From Isoptericola halotolerans (lineage in GTDB: Bacteria; Actinomycetota; Actinomycetes; Actinomycetales; Cellulomonadaceae): 64,000 nt of DNA. Each line of letters begins with the position of its first letter. Position 1 is the first letter of the stretch. Shown here in pieces: positions 7,984 through 20,230 of the stretch. Position numbers and translations under genes: made by a program. The stretch covers positions 806,001 to 870,000 of the forward strand of contig NZ_JABEZU010000001.1 in assembly GCF_013149785.1 (NCBI RefSeq), in the 5' to 3' direction. The notes beneath the pieces are model-generated. The model searched no databases. It was not told where the DNA came from and saw only the letters and a program-made list of their open reading frames with translations.

Positions 7984-8610
7984 TCAGGTGAGCCAGCCGC
8001 GCCGGCGTGCCACGGCCACGGCCGCTGTGCGGTCGTCCACCCCGAGCTTGGCGAAGGCGCGCAGGAGGTGCGTCTTCACGGTCGCCTCGGCGATGAACAG
8101 CTCTCGCCCGATCGCGACGTTCGACAACCCGCGCTCCACGAGCCGCAGCACCTCGGCCTCCCGCGGGGTCGGGCGCGCCTCCGCCGTGCGGACGGACGTC
8201 ACCAGTCGCGTCGCCACCGACGGCGCCAGCACCGTCTCGCCGCGCGCCGCGGCCCGCACCCCGGCGACGAGCGTCGCCCGCGGCGTGTCCTTGAGCAGGT
8301 AGCCGGTGGCGCCGGCCTCGACCGCTCGCAGGATGTCGGCGTCCGTGTCGTAGGTGGTGAGCACGACGACGCGCGGCCCCGCGGGCGAGCCCCGGACGAT
8401 CCGATCGGTCGCGCCGACGCCGTCGAGCACGGGCATCCGCAGGTCCATGAGCACGACGTCGGGGGTGAGCTCGCGGGCCAGGGCCACCGCCTGCTCGCCG
8501 TCGGGCGCCTCCCCGACGATCTCGACGTCGGGTTCGCCGGCCAGCATCCCGACGATGCCCGAGCGGACCACGGGATGGTCGTCGGCGACGAGGACGCGGA
8601 TCGCCGTCAC
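7984..8610 (-). CDS. NarL/LuxR-family response regulator
   Basis: A 208-residue regulator: receiver domain with VLVADDHPVVRSG, phospho-acceptor Asp in VVLMDLRMP (near residue 55) and a conserved Lys in GYLLKDTP. A C-terminal LuxR-type helix-turn-helix follows (TPREAEVLRLVERGLSNVAIGRELFIAEATVKTHLLRAF in two segments). The GTG start overlaps the kinase stop by 4 bases. It ends an operon of ABC ATPase, ABC-2 permease and histidine kinase, so it probably controls that exporter in response to a compound or membrane perturbation. Confidence 0.95.
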   Translation of the reverse strand: MTAIRVLVADDHPVVRSGIVGMLAGEPDVEIVGEAPDGEQAVALARELTPDVVLMDLRMPVLDGVGATDRIVRGSPAGPRVVVLTTYDTDADILRAVEAGATGYLLKDTPRATLVAGVRAAARGETVLAPSVATRLVTSVRTAEARPTPREAEVLRLVERGLSNVAIGRELFIAEATVKTHLLRAFAKLGVDDRTAAVAVARRRGWLT

Positions 8611-9848
8611 GACGGGACCACCGGCAGCCGGACCTGGAGCCGGGTTCCCCGGGTGGGTGCCGGACCGATCTCGAGCGCACCCCCGGCCGCTGCGGCGCGC
8701 TCGCGCATACCCGTCAGCCCGAAGCCCTCGGAGAACTGCGGGGGCAGCCCCCGGCCGTCGTCCGACACCTCGAGCTCGACGCCACCGTGGGGGTGGGTGA
8801 GCCGGACCGTGACGGCGGACGCCCCGGCATGCCGACGGACGTTCGTGAGCGCCTCCTGCGCCGCGCGCAGCAGGACGACGTCGGTCGTCGGGTCGACCGC
8901 ACCGCCGTCGTCGGACGTGACGACCGGGCTCCCGACGTCGATCCGCACCGCGGTGCCCGTCTCGGCGGTGAACCGGTCCGCGAGGCGTCGCAGGGCCTCC
9001 GGCAGGGTCGAGCCCTGCAGCGGCACCGGCGCGAACGCCGCGACCAGTCCGCGTGCCTCGGCCAGGTTCTCCCTGCCGGTCGCCTCGATGAGGCCGAGCC
9101 GTTCGCGGGCGGTCGTCTCCTCGCCCCGGTCGAGCGCCGCCGAGGCGGCCTGCGCCTGCATCACGACACTCGTGAACCCCTGGGCGAGGGTGTCGTGGAT
9201 CTCGCGGGCCATGCGCTCGCGCTCGGCGGCGACCCCTGCCGAGTGGTGCGTCTGTGCGAGCTGGGCCTGCGTGGCCCGGAGCTCGCGCAACAGCTGGGCC
9301 CGCTCGTCGGAGCGTCGCATCCAGGTCGCGGTCCAGAGCCCGAGCGTCAGCGCGAAGGCGAGGGCGACGGCCATCTGCGGTGCCGCCGCGAGCAGCCCCT
9401 GCGAGGAGAACCCCGCCTCGTAGGCGAGCCCGAACGTCGTGGCCACGGCCAGCGCCACGGACGCGAGGACGGCCCGGCGGGGAGGCTCGAGCAGCATCCA
9501 GAGCTGGGTGAACGCGCCGAACAGCAGGAAGGTCGCCAGGCCGCCCTGGGACACGGCGACAGCGGTCGCGACGACGAGCACCGGCACGTAGGTCAGGGCG
9601 CGGCGCTGGTCCCGCGACCGTGCCGCCGGGGCGCCCCAGGCCGTGTAGGCGGCGAGGATGGTCGCCATCGCCCCGTAGGCGACCCACAGCTCCCGGCCCG
9701 ACTGACCGCTCAGGGGCAGGGCGACTGCGGTGAGCAGGACGATCGCGACGAAGGCGACGTCCCACCAGATCACCTGCCGGTCCCAGTCGTCGGTGTCGTC
9801 CGGCGGGTCGGCGACGAGGTCGGGAGCCTCCTGGTCAGCCGTCGTCAC
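8607..9848 (-). CDS. NarL-type sensor histidine kinase (HisKA_3)
   Basis: A 413-residue kinase from the GTG that overlaps the permease end by 14 bases; longer starts would run further into the permease and were not used. About five or six hydrophobic helices fill residues 25-175 with almost no extracytoplasmic loop, as in intramembrane-sensing kinases of the LiaS/DesK kind. The HisKA_3 box is EREIHDTLAQGFTSVV-like, with His218. A short HATPase domain carries TNVRRHAGA, VSDDGRGLP and GFGLTGMRERA. Gene order with an ABC-2 transporter suggests sensing of membrane-active compounds or lipid state. Confidence 0.93.
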   Translation of the reverse strand: MTTADQEAPDLVADPPDDTDDWDRQVIWWDVAFVAIVLLTAVALPLSGQSGRELWVAYGAMATILAAYTAWGAPAARSRDQRRALTYVPVLVVATAVAVSQGGLATFLLFGAFTQLWMLLEPPRRAVLASVALAVATTFGLAYEAGFSSQGLLAAAPQMAVALAFALTLGLWTATWMRRSDERAQLLRELRATQAQLAQTHHSAGVAAERERMAREIHDTLAQGFTSVVMQAQAASAALDRGEETTARERLGLIEATGRENLAEARGLVAAFAPVPLQGSTLPEALRRLADRFTAETGTAVRIDVGSPVVTSDDGGAVDPTTDVVLLRAAQEALTNVRRHAGASAVTVRLTHPHGGVELEVSDDGRGLPPQFSEGFGLTGMRERAAAAGGALEIGPAPTRGTRLQVRLPVVPS

Positions 9849-10692
9849 GGCGCCGCCACCGGAACGTGCGGACCCCGACCACGAGCGAGACGACCAGCCA
9901 TGCGGCCAGTACAGCAGCCGTCGCACCGTGCTGCCAGGTGCCGGCCACCTCGAGCGCCTGGGCGTCGTCGGGCAGGAAGACCGATCGCATGCCCTGCGCC
10001 ATCCACTTCAGCGGGAAGACCGAGGCCACCGTCTGCATCCAGGACGGCAGGGCGAAGAACGCGAAGAAGACCCCGGAGACGAACTGCAGCACCAGGACGA
10101 CCGGGGTGACGACGGCGGTCGCGGACCTCCCGGACCGCGGCAGCGTGGAGAACGCCACCCCGCAGACCGTGCCCGTGGCGGTGCCGAGCACGAACACCCA
10201 GGCGAACGTCGCCCACGACGAGACGTCGGCCGGCATCGGCACGTCGTAGACCGTCGCGGCGAGCACGAGCAGCAGCGACGTCTGCACCACCGTGGTGAGC
10301 AGGACGAGCCCGATCTTGCCGTAGAAGTAGCTGAGCGCCGGCAGGGGCGTCGCGCGCAGGCGTTTGAGGGTGCCGTCGTCGCGCTCGACCGCGATGGAGA
10401 TCGCCAGCGACTGGAAGCTCGTCAGCATGACGCCGGTCGCGACCATCCCCGGCAGGAAGTACTGCGCGAACGGCACGCCGTAGCCGTCTGCGCCCTGGTC
10501 CTGGCCGCTGAAGACCGTCGCGAAGATCGCCATCATGATGAGCGGGTAGGAGAAGATGAAGATCACCGCGTCGCGCTCGCGGAAGAACGCGCGCAGCTCG
10601 ATGCCCGTCCGGTCGGCCCCGAGCCGTGCGGCGGACGGCAGGCGGGGGTGGGCCGCGGTCGCCGCCCGGTTCGTAGGTGCGGTGGCGCTCAT
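9835..10692 (-). CDS. ABC-2 type transporter permease
   Basis: A 285-residue integral membrane protein with about six helices: one near residue 45 (AVIFIFSYPLIMMAIF) and the rest between 100 and 275. It has the ABC-2 pattern, with a first helix, a large loop containing a GMVATGVMLTSFQSLAISIAVERDDGTLKRLRATPLP block, and a cluster of C-terminal helices. The block ERDDGTLKRLRATP is characteristic of daunorubicin-resistance-type permeases (DrrB). The start ATG overlaps the ATPase stop (ATGA). It would form the channel for the adjacent ATPase, exporting a hydrophobic molecule or drug; substrate unknown. Confidence 0.92.
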   Translation of the reverse strand: MSATAPTNRAATAAHPRLPSAARLGADRTGIELRAFFRERDAVIFIFSYPLIMMAIFATVFSGQDQGADGYGVPFAQYFLPGMVATGVMLTSFQSLAISIAVERDDGTLKRLRATPLPALSYFYGKIGLVLLTTVVQTSLLLVLAATVYDVPMPADVSSWATFAWVFVLGTATGTVCGVAFSTLPRSGRSATAVVTPVVLVLQFVSGVFFAFFALPSWMQTVASVFPLKWMAQGMRSVFLPDDAQALEVAGTWQHGATAAVLAAWLVVSLVVGVRTFRWRRRDDG

Positions 10693-11576
10693 CGCGCGAC
10701 CTCCTCGGTGGTTGCTCCGACGAGCTCGAGGTACACGTCCTCGAGGCTCGGTCGTACGACCTGCAGCCCGGGTACCTCGCCGTCGGGTGCGGTGCTCGCA
10801 GCCAGCTCGTGGACCAGTCGCGTGGGACGGTCGGTGCGCTCGCTCCGGGTGCTGCCGTCGGCCCCGGTCCAGCGCACGACGGGGCGCCGGGCCTGCGGCC
10901 CGCCGAGCGCGTCGGGGGTGTCGAGGGCGACCAGGCGGCCGTCGCGCACGACCGCGACGCGGTCGGCGAGGTGTGCGGCCTCGTCGAGGTAGTGGGTGGT
11001 CAGCAGGATCGTCGTGCCACCGTCGCGCAGCGAGCGGACGAGCTCCCAGAACGAGCGACGGGCCTGGGGGTCGAAGCCGGTGGTCGGCTCGTCGAGGAAG
11101 AGCAGCTCGGGGCGGCCCACGATCCCGAGGGCGACGTCCAGCCGGCGACGCTGGCCGCCCGAGAGCTGGCGGGCGCGCGTGGACCCCTTCTCCCGCAGCC
11201 CGACGGCGTCGATCACCTCCTCGGGGTCCTGCCCGGCCGGGTAGAACCCGGCGAAGTGGTGCACGAGCTCGCGGACGGTCAGCTCGACCTGGTCGCGAGA
11301 GTCCTGCAGGACGACCCCGAGGCGGCTGCGCCAGGCGCGCCCGCCGGACGCCGGGTCCTGGCCGAGCACGGTGACCTCGCCCGCGTCCCGGCTGCGAAAA
11401 CCCTCGAGGATCTCGACGGTGGTCGTCTTCCCCGCTCCGTTGGGGCCGAGGACGGCGAAGATCTCGCCCTGCTCGACACGAAGGTCGAGGCCGTCGACCG
11501 CCTGCTTGGTGCCGTAGCGCTTGCGCAGGCCGAGACCCTCGATGACGGGCGCGCCCTGGCGTCGTGGTGTGTCCAT
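10689..11576 (-). CDS. ABC transporter ATP-binding protein (DrrA-like)
   Basis: A 295-residue ATPase. Walker A GPNGAGKTT (44-52), Q-loop region VVLQDSRDQ, signature LSGGQRRR, Walker B ELLFLDEPTTGFDP and switch His in LLTTHYLDEAAHLADR are all present. A C-terminal extension of about 80 residues follows the nucleotide-binding domain, as in drug-exporting ATPases of the DrrA class. First gene of the exporter/two-component operon. The ATG at 11576 has a GGGTGGG ribosome site. It lies divergent from the tRNA-Trp gene, about 180 bp away. Confidence 0.95.
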   Translation of the reverse strand: MDTPRRQGAPVIEGLGLRKRYGTKQAVDGLDLRVEQGEIFAVLGPNGAGKTTTVEILEGFRSRDAGEVTVLGQDPASGGRAWRSRLGVVLQDSRDQVELTVRELVHHFAGFYPAGQDPEEVIDAVGLREKGSTRARQLSGGQRRRLDVALGIVGRPELLFLDEPTTGFDPQARRSFWELVRSLRDGGTTILLTTHYLDEAAHLADRVAVVRDGRLVALDTPDALGGPQARRPVVRWTGADGSTRSERTDRPTRLVHELAASTAPDGEVPGLQVVRPSLEDVYLELVGATTEEVAR

Positions 11577-11656
11577 GGACCCACCCTGCTGCGGGCGTGG
11601 GTCCCGGCGGGACGACCGTCCGGTGGCACCTCGCGTCCACCGACCGGTGGACGTGG

Positions 11657-11686
11657 TTCGACCCACGGCGCCGCTTCGCGTACAGT
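11657..11686 (+). promoter_or_regulatory. probable promoter for tRNA-Trp and secE-nusG
   Basis: TTCGAC, an 18-bp spacer and TACAGT resemble a sigma70-type promoter and lie about 75 bp upstream of the tRNA. No nearer candidate was seen. Confidence 0.4.
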
Positions 11687-11759
11687 TGTCCCTCGGTGGT
11701 TGACGGCCGCCATGCTGGACCGCGCCCTCGGGCGTGAGCCTGGTCGCCGTCGGGCACGA

Positions 11760-11835
11760 AGGGTAGTGGCGCAATTGGTAGCGCAGCGGTCTCCAAAACC
11801 GCAGGTTGCAGGTTCGAGTCCTGTCTACCCTGCCA
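11760..11835 (+). tRNA. trnW: tRNA-Trp (anticodon CCA)
   Basis: A 76-nt cloverleaf including an encoded 3' CCA. Acceptor arm AGGGTAG pairs with CTACCCT, followed by discriminator G. The D-loop has the AATTGGTAG block. The anticodon loop TCTCCAAAA carries CCA. The T arm has GGTTCGAGTCC. Its place just upstream of secE-nusG is common in actinobacteria. Confidence 0.97.
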
Positions 11836-11970
11836 GCGTGATCCCCCGCGGGGCCGCGCGCAGCGGGGCCATGCGACACGTGTGACCCGGAACGCCAGGA
11901 GTCTGTGCCGTGGGTGCGTCGCCGGCAGGCGGCGTGGCTGCGGTGTGATCGCGAAACGGGGTAGGTCGAA

Positions 11971-12225
11971 GTGAGCGAGTCGCCGGCTGAGGCCGCTGGG
12001 ACGCACGACGCCGGAGCAGGCAAGGAGCGTCGCAATGTCTTTGCCCGCATCGCGCTGTTCGTCCGTCAGGTGGTGGGCGAGCTCCGCAAGGTGGTCACCC
12101 CGACCCGGTCGGAGCTGATCAACTACACGATCGTCGTGATCGTGTTCGTCACGGTGGCGATGCTGTTCGTCACCGCGCTCGACCTCGTCGTCGGCCAGGG
12201 TGCCGGCTGGCTCTTCGGGAACTGA
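11971..12225 (+). CDS. secE: preprotein translocase subunit SecE
   Basis: An 84-residue single-span subunit of the SecYEG protein-export channel. A charged N-terminus of about 25 residues is followed by the amphipathic segment [20 protein letters not shown] and one membrane helix ([23 protein letters not shown]). This is the minimal one-helix SecE of Gram-positives. The GTG start was chosen because it lies in the only frame with this organisation. The gene is followed by nusG, the conserved order. Confidence 0.95.
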
Positions 12226-12290
12226 TCCCGACCAGCTGCCGGCCCGCCCGGGTCGCAACCCACATCCGAAGTCAGAAAGCAGGTTGGTTC

Positions 12291-13097
12291 GTGTCCCAGG
12301 ATCCTCTGGAGCAGGCCGAGAACGTCGACCCCACGCAGCCCGACGCCCCCGGCGTCGAGGCTGACCTCGACGTGCCCGGGACCGAGGAGGACGCCGAGGC
12401 CGCGGCCGACGACGTCACCGACGCAGAGTCGGACGAGGACGCCGAGACCGCTGCTGACGACGTCACCGCGGAGATCGAGGACCCCGCCGAGGAGCTGAAG
12501 CGCACGCTGCGCGGACAGTTCGGCGACTGGTACGTCATCCACTCCTACGCCGGGTACGAGAACCGCGTGAAGGCCAACCTGGAGAACCGCATCCAGAGCC
12601 TGAACATGGAGGACTACATCTTCCAGGTCGAGGTCCCCATGGAGGAGGTGACCGAGATCAAGAACGCGCAGAAGAAGACCGTGCGCCGTGTCCGCATCCC
12701 CGGTTACGTCCTCGTGCGCATGGACCTCACCGACGAGTCGTGGGGCGCCGTGCGGCACACCCCGGGCGTCACGGGCTTCGTCGGCCACACCCACCAGCCC
12801 GTCCCGCTGTCGCTGGACGAGGTCTTCGGGATGCTGGCTCCGACCATGCTCGAGGAAGCGCCCGCCAAGCAGGCGACCGCCGGCGCCACCGGCGCGCAGG
12901 GCGCGTCCGCGCGTCCTTCCATCGAGGTCGACTTCGAGGTCGGCGAGTCGGTCACCGTCACGGACGGACCCTTCGACACGCTGCCCGCCACGATCTCCGA
13001 GATCAACGCCGAGGCCCAGAAGCTCAAGGTCCTCGTCACCATCTTCGGCCGGGAGACCCCGGTCGAGCTGTCGTTCAACCAGGTCGCCAAGATCTGA
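12291..13097 (+). CDS. nusG: transcription termination/antitermination factor NusG
   Basis: A 268-residue factor that binds RNA polymerase and links it to Rho or to the leading ribosome. The first 75 residues are an acidic Ala/Asp/Glu-rich extension seen in actinobacterial NusG. The NGN domain starts at [17 protein letters not shown] and runs to LDEVFGML; after an Ala/Gly-rich linker comes the KOW domain ([16 protein letters not shown], ending SFNQVAKI). The GTG start has an AGCAGG site upstream. Confidence 0.95.
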
Positions 13098-14503: not shown

Positions 14504-14524
14504 GACAGCTTCCCGCACCACGAC

Positions 14525-14557
14525 GGCCCGGCACCCTCTCCGCGAGGGTGCCGGGCC
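14525..14557 (+). terminator. terminator after rplA
   Basis: A 14-bp perfect GC-rich stem (14525-14538 with 14544-14557) and a 5-nt loop lie 21 bases after the L1 stop. No T-run. It separates the ribosomal unit from the sigma/protease/CHAT module. Confidence 0.7.
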
Positions 14558-14761
14558 CTCGTCGTCCCTGGAGCAGATCCGTACGCGGTGTATCAGCGAG
14601 CCGCGAGCGCCCTCCCTTCCTGGTGACAGCGCTGATCGTGCGGAGGGTGAAATCTCATGGGTGGACCCGGGGCGCGCCGCGGGGCGTACCACGGCGCCCT
14701 AGGCTCGTGGCAGACCTCCGAGGCGCCCCGCGCCTCGGAGCACGAGGCCGCGCGAGGAGAG

Positions 14762-15370
14762 ATGACGAGTCCCGCTGAGACGGAGAGCCTGGGTGACCGC
14801 GCTGCGGCCGCCCTCGTCGGCTACCGCGAGGGCCACGCCGAGCTGATGAGCGAGTTCGTCCGCGAGGCGACGCCGATGCTGTGGCACACGGTGCGCGCCC
14901 AGGGTGTCCCGCGGGAGGTGGCCGACGACGTCGTGCAGCAGACCTGGGCCGCGCTCGTCGCGCACGTGGAGTCGATCACCGAGCCGCAGGCCACCCTCAA
15001 GTGGTTGCTGGTGACGGCCCGCCGTGCCGCGTGGGAGGCGGTGCGCAAGGGGCGTGCGGACGACCACCGGCGCACAGAGCTTCCGGACGACGACGCCGAC
15101 ACGGCTGCGACGCTGCCGGACACGGCGCCCGGCCCGGAGGCCGAGGTGCTGCGCGACGAGCGTGACCGGATGCTGTGGACCGCCCTGCAGCAGCTCCCGG
15201 GCCGTTGCCAGGAGCTGCTGCGTCTGGTGTCCCTCGCCGACCGTCCGGACTACCGCTCCATCTCCGCCGCGATCGGCATGCCGGTGGGGAGCATCGGCGC
15301 CACCCGGGGACGGTGCCTCGCCAAGCTGCGGGCCGTCCTCACCGAGCAGGGGGAGACCTCATGGACATGA
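14762..15370 (+). CDS. ECF-like RNA polymerase sigma factor, first gene of protease/CHAT module
   Basis: A 202-residue sigma70-family factor with only regions 2 and 4. Region 2 (about 28-95) has FVREATPMLWHTVRAQGVP, ADDVVQQTWAALV and the -10-reading block LKWLLVTARRAAWEAVRK. After an acidic linker, region 4 (about 140-195) has LPGRCQELLRLVSLADRPDYRSISAAIGMP followed by VGSIGATRGRCLAKLR, a standard helix-turn-helix. The ATG at 14762 follows GAGGAGAG. The 3' end overlaps the next start by 10 bases, so the two are coupled. Such sigma genes occur next to CHAT/protease genes in actinobacteria, from my memory of the family. Probable role: switching on this module or a stress regulon. Confidence 0.9.
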   Translation: MTSPAETESLGDRAAAALVGYREGHAELMSEFVREATPMLWHTVRAQGVPREVADDVVQQTWAALVAHVESITEPQATLKWLLVTARRAAWEAVRKGRADDHRRTELPDDDADTAATLPDTAPGPEAEVLRDERDRMLWTALQQLPGRCQELLRLVSLADRPDYRSISAAIGMPVGSIGATRGRCLAKLRAVLTEQGETSWT

Positions 15371-15861
15371 CCGACCTCGACGGCGTCGTGGGCGCCGACG
15401 ACCCGCTGGACGCCTCGGACGTCGCCCTGCTGGAGCGGGTGGCGGAGCTCAGCGGCCGGGTGGACCCCGTCCCGGAAGGGCTCGTGGAGCGGTCGCGCTT
15501 CGCCATGACGCTGGCGGGCCTGGAGTCGGAGGTGATGGAGCTCATGGTGCTCGAGGCGCCGGCCGGCACGGTGCGCAGCGATGCGCCACCCCTGGAGACC
15601 CGCACCATCACCTTCACGCACGAACGCCTCACGGTGATGATCGCCCTGTCACCCGGTGACGAGCCACGGACCGTGCGGGTCGACGGCTGGCTCGCCCCCG
15701 CAGAGACGTTGACGGTCGTGCTGCGCCGTCCGGACGGCGACCACCGCACCACCGCCGACGACGACGGCCGGTTCGTCCTGGAGAACGTCCCGCGCGGCCT
15801 GGCCAGCCTGCTCGTCGAGCAGGACGACCTCCCCATCACGACGCCCGTCATCGAGCTGTAG
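15361..15861 (+). CDS. carboxypeptidase-regulatory-like domain protein, candidate partner of the sigma factor
   Basis: A 166-residue protein without signal peptide or membrane helix. The N-terminal half is helical and acidic (DASDVALLERVAELSGRV, DPVPEGLVERSRFAMTLAGL, ESEVMELMVLE). The C-terminal 75 residues look like a beta-sandwich of the carboxypeptidase-regulatory type, with VDGWLAPAETLTVVLRRPDG, DDGRFVLENVPRGLASLLVE and a hydrophobic end. The start ATG-GAC-ATG overlaps the sigma stop and follows GGGGGAG. Position directly after a sigma gene suggests an anti-sigma or adaptor, but no zinc-binding HxxxCxxC motif is visible, so this is inference. I do not recognise a characterised homologue. 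Confidence 0.7.
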   Translation: MDMTDLDGVVGADDPLDASDVALLERVAELSGRVDPVPEGLVERSRFAMTLAGLESEVMELMVLEAPAGTVRSDAPPLETRTITFTHERLTVMIALSPGDEPRTVRVDGWLAPAETLTVVLRRPDGDHRTTADDDGRFVLENVPRGLASLLVEQDDLPITTPVIEL

Positions 15862-15919
15862 ACCCGAGCACCCTGTCTGACCTGCGGGCGCGAGCGTGCC
15901 CGACACCGAGGAGGAGCAC

Positions 15920-17662
15920 GTGAGCGAGACGACCATCTCCGACGCCGCCGGAGGCCGCCGCCCCGTGCGTCACCTGGACCCGGACCGGGTCCGCCGCAGC
16001 CCGGGCGCCTCGCGGGTCGCGGAGACCACCTACGTCGCGGACCGGCTCATCGTCCGTGGGCCGCTGCCGGCGGGTCTGCGAGGGCAGGTCGCCGAGGCGG
16101 TTCCGGCGCTCGTCGCGGGGGGCGGCAGCGCACAGGCCGGCCTGGACCCGTGGCCCGAGGACGACGAGCCGCAGACGTGGATCGACGGGGTACGACGCAT
16201 CGCCACGGAGATGGGCTACCGGGTCGTCTACGACGGCACGCTGGGAGACCTCGCGGTCGACGACGTCGACGACGAGACGTTCGGGTACGCGCTGCGCCTG
16301 GTCCCGCTGCGCGACGACGACGTCGAGGTGGACGCCTGGCAGGTCCTCGAGCGGATCGCCGGGGAGCTCGGCGAGCTGGACGCTCGCGACGACGGCGACG
16401 AGGGGGAGGAGCGGACGCCGCGCGTGGGCCTCGATCATGTGATGCGGGCGCAGCGCCACCGGTCGACGCCGATGCCCTTCGTCCCCGTCGCTCGTGCTCG
16501 CAGCACCCCCTTGCCGTACAGCGCCGTCGACGAGTACGGGCGTCCCGGGACGGGCGGGCTGACGCCTGTGCGCTATCTCGGCGGTGCACCGCGTCGTGAG
16601 CTCGCCGACGGTCCGACGCCGTGGGCGGCCGCGGACGGCACACGGAGGCCGGTCGTGGCGATCGTCGACACCGGGGTCGGGTCGCACCCGTGGTTCGGCG
16701 AGTACGACCCGCACGATCCCCAGGACAGCCCGGTCGTCGTGCGGACCGCCTCCCTCGACGGTCGGCCGGTGGGGCTGTTCCCTGTGTCCCGGTTCGACTC
16801 CGAGGACGCTGAGTTCGGCGGCCTCAGCGTCGACCCGCTGACGGGCCCTCTGGACCCGGTGGCGGGGCACGGCACCTTCATGGCCGGAGTCGTCCACCAG
16901 GTCTGCCCGGACGCGGTGCTCATGGCCGTCCGCGCCTTCGGAGGTTCGGGCGACATCCCGGAGTGGCAGGTGCTCCACACCCTGTGGAGGTTGCTGCGCT
17001 ACCACCGGCGAGGACTGGCCGGCAGGGACGGCTACCACCAGGTCGACGTGGTGGTGCTGGCGATGGGTTACTACCACGAGCAGCCGGTGGACTACGGGTA
17101 CGACGGGCCTCTGCGGCGGGTGCTGCGCGAGCTGCGCCGTGCCGGTGTCGTCGTGGTCACCGCGGCAGGGAACGACGGGACCACGAGGCCCCTGTTCCCG
17201 GCCGCGTGGGCACCTCGCCTGGAGCACCGGGAGAACGGCCCGGCCCCGGTCGACGACCACCAGCTCTCATCGACGTACCCGCCCCTCCTGGTCGCCGGGG
17301 CCACCAACCCGGACGGCACGATCGCGGTCTTCAGCAACGACGGCCCGTGGGTCACCTGCGTCCGGCCGGGGGCCGCCGTCGTCTCCACGATGCCGACGAC
17401 GCTGGACGGGCCGGAGACCCCGGAAGCCCGAGTGGCCGAGCGGCTGAGACCCGGGGTCCGGGCAACGGTCGACCCGGACGACTTCACCGGGGGGTACGCC
17501 ACATGGAGCGGGACGTCGTTCTCGGCGCCGTACCTGGCTGCCCAGATCGCCGCGGCACGTCTGGGACGGGCCCGGGCCGACGGGGATCTCGCGGCGGCGA
17601 CGTGGGATGCTGTCGCGCAGGCGACGGGCCTCGGCCCTGTCGGGAGCAGCGCGTCCGGCTAG
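15920..17662 (+). CDS. cytoplasmic S8 (subtilisin-like) serine protease
   Basis: A 580-residue protease with an intact triad: Asp250 in VVAIVDTGVGSHPW, His317 in GHGTFMAGVVH, and Ser533 in WSGTSFSAPYLAAQIAAA; the oxyanion Asn is probably in TAAGNDG. The GTG at 15920 has a GAGGAG site; an upstream GTG at 15896 lacks one. There is no signal peptide and no obvious inhibitory I9 prodomain. Instead, about 240 N-terminal residues carry an unrecognised acidic domain (YVADRLIVRGPLPAG, DDVDDETFGYALRLVPL). It therefore probably acts inside the cell. The single TAG stop lies in the same frame as the CHAT coding region that follows. Proposed role: a protease cascade with the CHAT protein under the sigma factor. 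Confidence 0.9.
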   Translation: MSETTISDAAGGRRPVRHLDPDRVRRSPGASRVAETTYVADRLIVRGPLPAGLRGQVAEAVPALVAGGGSAQAGLDPWPEDDEPQTWIDGVRRIATEMGYRVVYDGTLGDLAVDDVDDETFGYALRLVPLRDDDVEVDAWQVLERIAGELGELDARDDGDEGEERTPRVGLDHVMRAQRHRSTPMPFVPVARARSTPLPYSAVDEYGRPGTGGLTPVRYLGGAPRRELADGPTPWAAADGTRRPVVAIVDTGVGSHPWFGEYDPHDPQDSPVVVRTASLDGRPVGLFPVSRFDSEDAEFGGLSVDPLTGPLDPVAGHGTFMAGVVHQVCPDAVLMAVRAFGGSGDIPEWQVLHTLWRLLRYHRRGLAGRDGYHQVDVVVLAMGYYHEQPVDYGYDGPLRRVLRELRRAGVVVVTAAGNDGTTRPLFPAAWAPRLEHRENGPAPVDDHQLSSTYPPLLVAGATNPDGTIAVFSNDGPWVTCVRPGAAVVSTMPTTLDGPETPEARVAERLRPGVRATVDPDDFTGGYATWSGTSFSAPYLAAQIAAARLGRARADGDLAAATWDAVAQATGLGPVGSSASG

Positions 17663-17674
17663 GAGGAGGCAGGG
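17661..17674 (+). promoter_or_regulatory. Shine-Dalgarno sequence placing a non-canonical start for the CHAT gene
   Basis: AGGAGGAGG overlaps the protease TAG stop and lies 5 bases before ATC-GAC-AAG. No ATG, GTG or TTG in the right frame occurs until 17825. The placement argues for initiation at or very near ATC (17675) by termination-reinitiation. Confidence 0.55.
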
Positions 17675-20230
17675 ATCGACAAGGCGGCGTACGACGCGCG
17701 TCTCCGCGAGGCGCAAGAGCTCAACGCGGCCTCGCAGGTCCGGCGGGCCTCGCGTGCCTACCAGGCACTCCTGCGCGACGTCCTGCCGCTGGAAGCCTCG
17801 ATCCACGGCGACTGGGTCGTCGAGATGCGTGTCCGCGCACTGATCGGTGAGGCGTCGTGCGTCTACGGGCTGACCGGTGACCTGGCCGGCGCGCGGAGGC
17901 TGATCGGTGAGGCGCTCGCCGCCGCACAGGTGCCTGCGCTGGCCGCTGTCGTGCACGCCCAGGACGGGCTGCTGCTGCTGAGGTCCGGCGACGCCGTCGC
18001 GGCGGCGCGGACCTTCGACCGCGCACTGTCGACCGCCGATCCCGAGAACCATCGGGACCTTGCCGTGGTGCACATCAACCGGGGGGCCGCGGCAGGTGAG
18101 ATGGGTGATCTCGACGCGGACCTCCGCCATCACGAGCTGGCGTTGCATCACGCGCGTCGCGCCGGGCACGACCTGTATGCGGCCTTCGCGCTCTTCAACC
18201 TGGGCTTCGGGAACTACCTGCGAGGTGACATCCCCGCGGCCCTGAACCAGATGGAGGAGGCGGCCGCGCTCCAGCCCGGCGGACCTGACGGCTGGTCGGA
18301 GGTGGGCCGTGCGGCGGTCCTGCTCGATGCGGGCCTGGTCACCGACGCCGAGAAGGTGCTGGCCGGCGCGGTCGACCTGCTGACGTCCGAGGACCTGACC
18401 GGGGAGCGGGGCGACGCCGCGCTCGGCCGGGCACAGTGCGCGATCCTGCTGAGGAGGTACGACGAGGCCGTCCGGTGGGCCGACAGGTCGCGCCGCGCGT
18501 TCCTCCTGGTCAGGAACGAGGCCTGGGCGCTGCGCGCCAGCGCGGTCGGGCTCGAGGCACTGCTGGCGGCGGACCGGGACGGAAGGCCCTCCCGCCGTGC
18601 GACCCGGCGCGCTCGTCGGGAACGGTCGTTGGCGCTCGCGGGTGACGCCGAACGTCGCGGACGGGGTGCGGGCGCTGTCGTCGCGGTGACGGGCAGGCTG
18701 CTCGCCGTCGAGTGGTCCCTGCTGGCCGGGGACGTCGGTCGTGCCGGAGAGATCGCCGGGACCCTGCCTCCGCGCCTGAGCGCTGACAACCCGCTCCCGC
18801 TGCGGGTGCACCACCAGTCCGTGCTGGCGCAGGTGGCCTTCGCGCGGGCCGATCGGCGTGCCGGGCTGCGTGCCGTGCGCCGTGGGCAGGAGATCCTGGC
18901 CGACCACCGGGCGCGTGTCGGGTCGGTCGAGGCGGTGGCTGCGGCGGCGGCGCACGGTGGCCGGCTCGCACGGGTGGACGTGGAGGCAGCGCTCGCCACC
19001 GGGCGGGCCCGCGCCGTGTTCGACGCCACCGAACGAGGCCGCGCGGCGTTCGCGGGTGCGGCCCGGGTGCGTCCGCCCGACGACCCCGAGCTCGCCGACC
19101 TCCTGACCCGCGCCCGGCGAGCCGGCGAGGAGGCTCGCGAGCTGGGTGCCAGCCCGGACCCCGCCGACCGGAAGGTCGGTGCTCGGCGGGAGCTCGAGTC
19201 GCGCAAGCTCCAGGAGCGTGCCCGGCGTCGCTCCTGGCGGCTTGCCGGAGCGGGGGAGAGGATGCCGACGGCGGCGACGGCGTCGGCCGTGGTCGAGCGT
19301 CTCCGGTGCGTCGCACCCGACGCCGTGCTCGTCTCCTACCTGCTCACCGACCGCGTCACGGCTCTCCGCGTCGCGTCCGACGGCGTCCGCTCGTCCGAGC
19401 TGTGCCCCGCTCCCGAGGTGCTGGAGCTGGCCCGCCGCGTGGGTCAGGACCTCCAGGTCCTCGCGAACCGGCTCATCCCCGCGCCGTTGCGGGAGATCGC
19501 GGCGACGTCCGCCCGACGGTCTCTCGCCCGGATCGACACGCTGCTGCTGGAGCCGCTCGGCGTCGGCGGGACGCTGCACGTCGCGGCTCGGGGTGCGCTG
19601 CTGGGGATCCCCTGGGCTGCGATGCCCTCCCGGGCCGGCCACGGGACCTGGGTCAACTCGTGGGCCGACCTCGGTTCCGTCGGTCGGCCTGCGGGCGTCG
19701 ACCGGGCGGTCGTCGTCGCCGGTCCGGGACTCGTGGCCGCAGAGGAGGAGGCCCGTCTGGTGGCGGAGGTGTGGGACGACGTCCAGGTGCTCACCGGGCC
19801 GGAGGCGACCTGCGCCGCCACGACGAGGGCATGGGTCGGCGCGGGGGTGGTCCATCTCGCCGCTCACGGGACGCACGAGCCGGACAACCCGTTGTTCTCC
19901 TCCGTCCGCCTCGCGGACGGTGCCCTGTACGCGCACGAGCTGGACGGTGCGGACCTGCGAGGGGCCGTCGTCGTCCTCTCGGCGTGCGAGGTCGGACGGT
20001 CCTCGTCGCGGATCGGTGGCGAGCCGCTCGGCCTGACGAGCGTGCTGCTGCGGCTGGGCGCCCGTGCCGTCGTCGCCGCCGTCGCACCGTTGCGTGACGA
20101 CGTCGCGGCACGGGTGATGCCACGGCTGCACCGGGAGCTGCGCGACGGGGCGGACGCCGCGACCGCCCTGGCTCGTGCCGTCCGGCCCGAGCCCGAACCG
20201 GTCCCGCTGGTCTGCTTCGGTCCGCTGTGA
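17675..20230 (+). CDS. TPR-CHAT domain protease (caspase-like), apparent ATC start
   Basis: About 851 residues if started at the ATC after the Shine-Dalgarno; 801 if the first ATG (17825) is used. I prefer the longer form because the extra residues (DKAAYDARLREAQELNAASQ, SRAYQALLRDVLPLE) form the helices expected to begin the TPR array. Helical TPR-like repeats continue to about residue 480. A coiled, Arg/Glu-rich segment is followed by the C-terminal CHAT domain, a clan-CD caspase-like protease, with His731 in VVHLAAHGTHEPDNP and Cys771 in VVLSACEVGRSSS. Both dyad residues are intact. No signal peptide. It is the last gene of the sigma/protease module. CHAT proteases of known systems, such as Craspase/TPR-CHAT, cleave defined proteins to trigger immunity or death; a similar role here is inference. 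Confidence 0.85.
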   Translation: MDKAAYDARLREAQELNAASQVRRASRAYQALLRDVLPLEASIHGDWVVEMRVRALIGEASCVYGLTGDLAGARRLIGEALAAAQVPALAAVVHAQDGLLLLRSGDAVAAARTFDRALSTADPENHRDLAVVHINRGAAAGEMGDLDADLRHHELALHHARRAGHDLYAAFALFNLGFGNYLRGDIPAALNQMEEAAALQPGGPDGWSEVGRAAVLLDAGLVTDAEKVLAGAVDLLTSEDLTGERGDAALGRAQCAILLRRYDEAVRWADRSRRAFLLVRNEAWALRASAVGLEALLAADRDGRPSRRATRRARRERSLALAGDAERRGRGAGAVVAVTGRLLAVEWSLLAGDVGRAGEIAGTLPPRLSADNPLPLRVHHQSVLAQVAFARADRRAGLRAVRRGQEILADHRARVGSVEAVAAAAAHGGRLARVDVEAALATGRARAVFDATERGRAAFAGAARVRPPDDPELADLLTRARRAGEEARELGASPDPADRKVGARRELESRKLQERARRRSWRLAGAGERMPTAATASAVVERLRCVAPDAVLVSYLLTDRVTALRVASDGVRSSELCPAPEVLELARRVGQDLQVLANRLIPAPLREIAATSARRSLARIDTLLLEPLGVGGTLHVAARGALLGIPWAAMPSRAGHGTWVNSWADLGSVGRPAGVDRAVVVAGPGLVAAEEEARLVAEVWDDVQVLTGPEATCAATTRAWVGAGVVHLAAHGTHEPDNPLFSSVRLADGALYAHELDGADLRGAVVVLSACEVGRSSSRIGGEPLGLTSVLLRLGARAVVAAVAPLRDDVAARVMPRLHRELRDGADAATALARAVRPEPEPVPLVCFGPL

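Follow-up and report, generated by a model that had tools for sequence, protein, structure and literature searches.

A conserved module of an ECF-type sigma factor, a soluble partner, and two predicted cytosolic proteases behind rplKA in Isoptericola halotolerans

The locus and its four products

The 64,000-nucleotide stretch of Isoptericola halotolerans analyzed here (the window; contig NZ_JABEZU010000001.1, positions 806,001 to 870,000) carries four closely packed genes on the plus strand, which encode, in this order, a sigma factor of the extracytoplasmic function (ECF) type (202 residues, 14762..15370), a soluble partner of 166 residues (15361..15861), an intracellular S8 subtilase (580 residues, 15920..17662), and a TPR-CHAT protease (851 residues, 17675..20230). 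The flanking genes, which we take to be rplK and rplA on one side and rplJ, rplL, and rpoB on the other, were named by recognizing their translations, not by family search; relatives of the flanking ribosomal genes also border the module in loci L003-L006. The original prediction, made from the letters of the window, had described four such genes, overlapping or tightly spaced on one strand, and all four are confirmed. New here is the bipartite promoter-like motif TGTATCA-N16-CTCY that stands ahead of the module.

The sigma factor matches TIGR02937 over residues 29-191 with 65.1 bits, above the cut-off, and Pfam Sigma70_r2 marginally so (24.8 bits, cut-off 24), with region 4 at 14.1 bits, under its cut-off; judged by these matches it has sigma2 and sigma4 domains only and belongs with the ECF (sigma70 group IV) factors. 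Upstream of its gene, the GGAGGGTGAAATCTCATGGG element (14642..14661, plus strand), found with at most 3 mismatches in 6 of 18 genomes of the genus, contains a Shine-Dalgarno-like site plus an in-frame ATG at 14657, and the sigma factor may possess a longer form from this ATG, with a poorly conserved N terminus. The sigma and partner genes overlap by 10 bases. For the partner, a candidate cytosolic sigma regulator, the CarboxypepD_reg match is sub-threshold (20.4 versus 32.3 bits), and the predicted structure comprises two N-terminal helices and a beta sandwich at low confidence (predicted local distance difference test, pLDDT, 67.7); the fold search with this model gave weak matches only, many of them Ig-like and none at E 0.001 or better. 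The absence of a signal peptide from both proteases, as originally predicted, extends to the whole module, none of the four proteins having a hydrophobic segment suggestive of a signal peptide or membrane anchor.

By their sequence matches, the two proteases qualify for family S8 and for the TPR-CHAT proteases, respectively. The subtilase scores 59.6 bits with Peptidase_S8 (cut-off 21.8) and has the triad D250/H317/S533, whereas the last protein of the module scores 92 bits with CHAT, carries the dyad H731/C771, and has TPR matches slightly under the cut-off in an N-terminal part that is all-helical in the predicted model. The triad, reported as intact in the original prediction, is kept in 35 of 35 subtilases of a first set and 31 of 31 of a second, and the His and Cys of the dyad, likewise reported as intact, are kept in 35 of 37 and 34 of 34 TPR-CHAT proteins; in the two exceptions, L047 and L061, contig ends cut the sequence ahead of the CHAT domain. 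Across the aligned proteins the catalytic residues are invariant wherever the domain is present. Three loci of the family (L158, L159, and L160) lack a subtilase profile match and have, beside sigma and oriented divergently to it, a gene for a trypsin-like (NAL1-like) protease with GGDSGS, whose Trypsin_2 matches are all under the Pfam cut-off (18.9-23.3 versus 27.6 bits). A motif copy is directed at this gene in all three (L158 8203+, L159 6579-, and L160 6595-). The presence of a trypsin-like protease in the place of the subtilase suggests that a second protease is required, but not its fold.

The TPR-CHAT gene is present as predicted, and only its start needs qualification, because its frame holds no ATG, GTG, or TTG between the subtilase stop codon and the alternative start ATG 17825. 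Homology to L003 and L005 sets in at ATC 17675 (9753 in L003 and 9751 in L005; three Isoptericola-type genomes), and a G-rich Shine-Dalgarno-like sequence precedes this codon in each (GGAGG in the window, as part of GGAGGAGG, and in L005; GGGGGC in L003). In codons 2-50, the proportion of non-synonymous change (pN) is 0.09-0.17 versus 0.28-0.52 for synonymous change (pS) in three pairs, a pattern typical of coding sequence. Together with the homology from the ATC onward, this low non-synonymous change suggests that the gene probably begins at 17675, apparently with a rare AUC start codon; relatives L004, L081, and L082 have a GTG near the equivalent position. In the window and L003, subtilase and CHAT lie in one frame across a single TAG; a fusion of the two by stop-codon readthrough was considered and rejected, as L005 has them in different frames and L004 has an additional stop between them.

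Linkage across the class and residence behind rplKA

A partner profile built from five sequences and run against 394 genomes of the class gave matches in 74, the window's own included. From these, 40 loci were fetched, one per genome (the first 33 other genomes by match rank and 7 picked lower down), and the module genes in the fetched loci were identified with their own profiles. A sigma gene adjoins the partner in 40 of 40 loci, TPR-CHAT lies near it in 33, and a subtilase is found in 32 (31 by its own profile and one, in L051, by Pfam), both proteases being present in 32. Eight loci gave no subtilase: the contigs of L042 and L059 are short (9.8 and 10.2 kb); L052, L063, L066, L068, and L069 show sigma and partner only; and L073 has CHAT and no subtilase by profile. 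The class loci differ in gene order and strand, and a linkage preserved despite such changes is the more telling. The original prediction had named scattered homologues and unconserved catalytic residues as evidence that would speak against it; neither was encountered.

Over 28 loci, correlations between the distance matrices were 0.86 for sigma and partner, 0.76 for subtilase and CHAT, 0.72 for partner and CHAT, and 0.64 for sigma and CHAT; distances of rplA correlate with those of all module proteins (0.28-0.57), most module pairs being higher. The four genes form a conserved unit. The combination recurs across genera, and the host genome (3.97 Mb) has only three subtilase and two CHAT matches, which makes the module more than a chance assembly. 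The other CHAT-domain gene of this genome (G000:C3; L002, L144) had no module-profile match within the 16 kb around it (L144). In L050, an insertion of about 4 kb with opposite-strand genes (8236-12364) parts the subtilase from CHAT.

Of 101 genomes from the family of the window, 64 encode the partner, and these represent 17 of 25 genera. Among 19 loci fetched from other genera of the family, the module stands behind rplA in all 19 and is followed by rplJ in 17, the other two (L150 and L151) having no rplJ in the leftover 2.7-2.8 kb of the stretch; within the genus, CHAT is found in 17 of 18 genomes, with rplJ nearby in 16 of these 17 (not in L087, a shorter stretch). The family and genus sets include close relatives, and some loci represent the same species via two collections. 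The 40 class loci gave no match to nusG, rplK, rplA, rplJ, rplL, or rpoB queries. Fifteen family genomes without the module were searched: 10 have an empty site, with rplA 335-794 bases from rplJ, and the remaining five gave no rplA match in the fetched stretch of about 1.5 kb. The module does split a normally conserved ribosomal neighborhood, as first noted from the window, and its position is shared across the family. The shared position, the empty sites, and the rplA-correlated distances together point to a long-resident, mostly vertically inherited unit, in keeping with the original suggestion of an old resident. An origin from mobile elements was considered and rejected: a plasmid search with the partner gave one match, on a Nonomuraea replicon of 11.85 Mb, and one with sigma gave three, namely the same replicon and, more weakly, two Streptomyces plasmids. 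An inheritance that is chromosomal and for the most part vertical speaks against a mobile defense cassette. In two loci, chitinase-like genes, identified by eye, lie between rplA and the module (L145 3942-5237, minus strand; L147 8661-10112, plus strand), indicating that the ribosomal gap has also acquired other genes.

A promoter-like motif ahead of the module

Behind rplA, a GC-rich inverted repeat (14521..14564, plus strand), read from the sequence and kept in three Isoptericola relatives, probably ends the rplKA transcript, so that the module is probably transcribed separately. It is followed by GTATCA-N16-CTCC (14590..14615, plus strand), a candidate sigma-dependent autoregulatory promoter identified by comparing loci, as the regions upstream of sigma have TGTATCA-N16-CTCY in common across the class, with the spacing fixed. 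Such a spacing between two short elements falls in the range known for ECF promoters. Closer to the sigma gene, TAGGCT (14700..14705, plus strand) may be a housekeeping-like -10 element, similar hexamers being seen by eye in relatives.

Motif tallies were made on a family set of 35 loci and a class set of 41. When the spacing x in GTATCA-N(x)-CTCY was varied from 8 to 25, x = 16 gave 31 matches in the family set (30 of 35 loci) and 39 in the class set (29 of 41 loci); no other spacing gave more than 7 or 9 matches, respectively, and CTCCCTC-type repeats probably feed the next peaks. In 30 of 35 family and 28 of 41 class loci, the motif precedes a module gene on the same strand by no more than 900 bp. 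In the same interval, control patterns were found in few loci (family/class: reversed, 0/1; complemented, 0/0; spacing 14, 0/0; spacing 19, 1/4). In genome-wide scans of 15 genomes, the strict form TGTATCAG-N15-CTCY was matched 17 times, of which 15 were at the module; the reversed pattern had 8 matches, and three genomes had no strict-form match. In another genus, where sigma and partner were the only module genes seen, each of eight genomes has a single match to the motif (a pattern derived from four of those eight), and sigma and partner lie downstream of it in seven; in the eighth, G217, the contig ends about 0.6 kb past the motif and the partner match sits on another contig. Strict forms of the motif are therefore nearly confined to the module.

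The simplest reading of this distribution is autoregulation by the adjacent sigma factor with a small regulon, in which a few further targets are possible, the motif presumably being read by the neighboring sigma. The original prediction had proposed transcriptional control by a dedicated sigma factor, and the conserved motif lends this proposal strong support.

Some loci carry a second copy of the motif, 19-23 bases past the CHAT frame in six (L044 4383-, L045 9140+, L046 4171-, L048 3742-, L049 10872+, and L060 3556-) and about 55 bases past it in L050 (14840+). Behind it stand short hairpins and a strong terminator-like hairpin, with no conserved reading frame seen, and this copy is a candidate for driving a sigma-dependent small RNA. 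When folded, six loci gave z values of -0.4 to -3.2 relative to mononucleotide shuffles, with GGGG runs exceeding the shuffled mean in five of the six. The candidate RNA has no Rfam match; more broadly, seven loci scanned with Rfam gave none, and the window yielded a tRNA only. At the same place in L058 (3915-4235, minus strand) and L065 (3579-3897, minus strand), a conserved frame of 105 residues follows directly after the motif, its product having no Pfam match.

Precedents, proposed switch, and alternatives

To our knowledge, a connection between a sigma factor and a protease of the caspase superfamily exists in few cases, and the best studied one is bound to clustered regularly interspaced short palindromic repeats (CRISPR). 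In this type III-E CRISPR system, the TPR-CHAT protease Csx29 cuts Csx30, an inhibitor of the ECF sigma factor CASP-sigma (PMC10028731, in the parts drawn on here). The output arm of this Craspase resembles the module in that the gene of a TPR-CHAT protein stands with those of an ECF-type sigma and of a third protein, possibly a protease-sensitive sigma inhibitor, and the window's TPR-CHAT shows weak similarity to Csx29 chains, in sequence (E 0.003) as well as in fold. On the other hand, the partner has 166 residues and no Csx30 match, whereas Csx30 is given at least 565 residues in those parts of PMC10028731, and the module includes an additional serine protease and a candidate sigma site before its own operon. 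No Cas gene was found among the four module genes with Pfam, NCBIfam, or PADLOC, a search that did not extend to cas genes elsewhere in the genome, and the Csx29 family model NF041237 gave 19.1 bits against a cut-off of 300, so that the fold class only is shared. By analogy, we infer that the module acts like the Craspase output arm without CRISPR, and membership in type III-E is not claimed.

Other relatives are more distant. CHAT and caspase-like proteases are found in defense systems and in predicted conflict systems, some of which include genes for an ECF sigma and TPR proteins; in the predicted EACC2 systems, as described in the sections of PMC8195603 considered here, genes of caspase-superfamily proteases likewise adjoin an ECF sigma and a TPR protein, but the latter has a gene of its own (DUF1822) and the caspase carries EACC2 and variable C-terminal domains as fusion partners, whereas the module's CHAT is fused to the TPR repeats, and neither a subtilase nor a comparable partner is named in those sections. 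Separase shares an alpha-solenoid followed by a CHAT-related protease domain, and provides PDB fold matches at ranks 2-4, but the module protein is bacterial, smaller, and encoded with a sigma factor. These fold matches have low template modeling (TM) scores of 0.2-0.4, and around the CHAT active site the model is of poor quality; another fold match of this model is the transmembrane anti-sigma factor DdvA (ranks 6 and 11), perhaps via shared helical repeats. ECF sigma/anti-sigma pairs of the RseA/RsiW type, as far as the sources used here describe them, also have a co-transcribed partner beside the sigma gene and involve proteases; unlike them, the module has a partner and proteases predicted to be soluble, and the partner has no recognized anti-sigma domain. 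The component families are known and the principle of a caspase-like protease acting on an ECF sigma has precedents; no description of the four-gene module was found among the open-access papers listed in the searches.

Our model, to which we give an even chance, sees in the module a proteolytic switch that acts in the cytosol and regulates itself. The ECF-type sigma would be held in check by, or work with, the co-translated partner, a candidate sigma inhibitor and protease substrate; a signal perceived by the TPR part of TPR-CHAT, or by the subtilase, would cause the partner (or else the other protease) to be cleaved and free the sigma, which would then use the TGTATCA-N16-CTCY promoter to transcribe chiefly its own operon, so that both proteases rise in a positive feedback loop. 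Such a switch is suggested by a sigma whose main target appears to be its own operon, by a soluble partner translated along with it, and by two proteases that are intact and predicted to be cytosolic, and the same logic is drawn from the precedent of Csx29, Csx30, and CASP-sigma. The compared sequences supply the gene linkage, the invariant catalytic residues, the promoter-like motif with the near confinement of its strict forms, and the trypsin-like replacement; what the model would add is that this sigma reads the motif and that the partner is both inhibitor and substrate, besides a trigger and a consequence for the cell.

Several observations weigh against this model. The partner gave no anti-sigma domain match in Pfam or NCBIfam up to E 1 and no Csx30 match among PDB sequences up to E 10, in a library whose content of Csx30 is unchecked, and its structural model is of low confidence. 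The subtilase distances correlate with those of partner and sigma at 0.40 and 0.36, below the 0.57 of sigma and rplA. In the tested interval, the strict motif is missing from 5 of the 35 family loci and from 13 of the 41 class loci, and the motif could bind another regulator. Across 18 genomes of the genus, a looser form gave 41 matches, 16 at the module and 25 elsewhere, versus 9 for the reversed pattern, which leaves room for a wider regulon; of 17 non-module loci (15 of the 25 looser-form places and both strict-form ones), 11 lay inside and 6 outside genes as called by a crude prediction, three of the latter 47-163 bases ahead of different genes, and no target recurred among the 17. Finally, for some sigma-partner pairs (L063, L066, L068, L069, and L052) neither a subtilase nor a CHAT protein was matched within 15 kb.

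These pairs without nearby proteases, which on sequence grounds point to a wider sigma-partner family, imply that the partner cannot serve solely as a protease substrate and has a role of its own. They keep alive a doubtful but serious rival, in which the sigma-partner pair is itself the sensor, the partner's Ig-like domain binding a ligand and releasing sigma, and the proteases are an induced output that clears, for example, damaged or foreign proteins. The motif is present in four of the five pairs (not in L052), and it stands ahead of protease genes, both as this rival would have it; against it, TPR-CHAT proteins elsewhere (Csx29 and separase), as portrayed in the sources consulted, are regulated, site-specific proteases, which fits signaling over bulk clearance.

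A dedicated anti-phage or cell-suicide system, in which infection activates TPR-CHAT and this, with the subtilase, destroys essential proteins, would be akin to the defense and predicted conflict systems treated in the cited part of PMC8195603, and the original prediction had proposed a switch responsive to stress or infection, a trigger of either kind being conjectural. We consider this improbable: the module is present in the majority of family genomes, always at one chromosomal site behind rplKA in the sampled loci, no plasmid-sized record carries a partner match, divergence is correlated with rplA, and PADLOC returned only weak generic matches among the module proteins (subtilase, 3.7e-5; BovA, 4e-4; DpdI, 0.003), the flanking genes not having been scanned for defense genes. 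That an unrelated transcription factor binds the motif, sigma having a different regulon, is likewise improbable, for although the link between the two rests on sequence and no report of the motif was found in a search of open-access papers, two short elements at rigid spacing accompany this sigma gene in every examined locus, and no gene for another regulator was seen next to the module, where neighbors were not systematically annotated.

Returning to the autoregulated switch, a bolder version, which we think less likely than not, is that of a widespread actinobacterial circuit whose ECF sigma has practically one target, its own operon, and in which release of the sigma would cause a burst of two cytosolic proteases, that is, an irreversible, self-amplifying commitment circuit with Craspase logic but without CRISPR, and maybe of a module type ancestral to the type III-E output arm. 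With its defined promoter-like motif, a system so common and so largely inherited by descent would allow the activation of TPR-CHAT proteases to be assayed directly with a reporter and would supply a candidate natural substrate of these proteases. It would also give a name to a circuit that is presumably scattered in genomes as 'CHAT', 'S8', 'sigma-70', and hypothetical entries, and its fixed place behind rplKA in one family raises the question of a coupling to translation.

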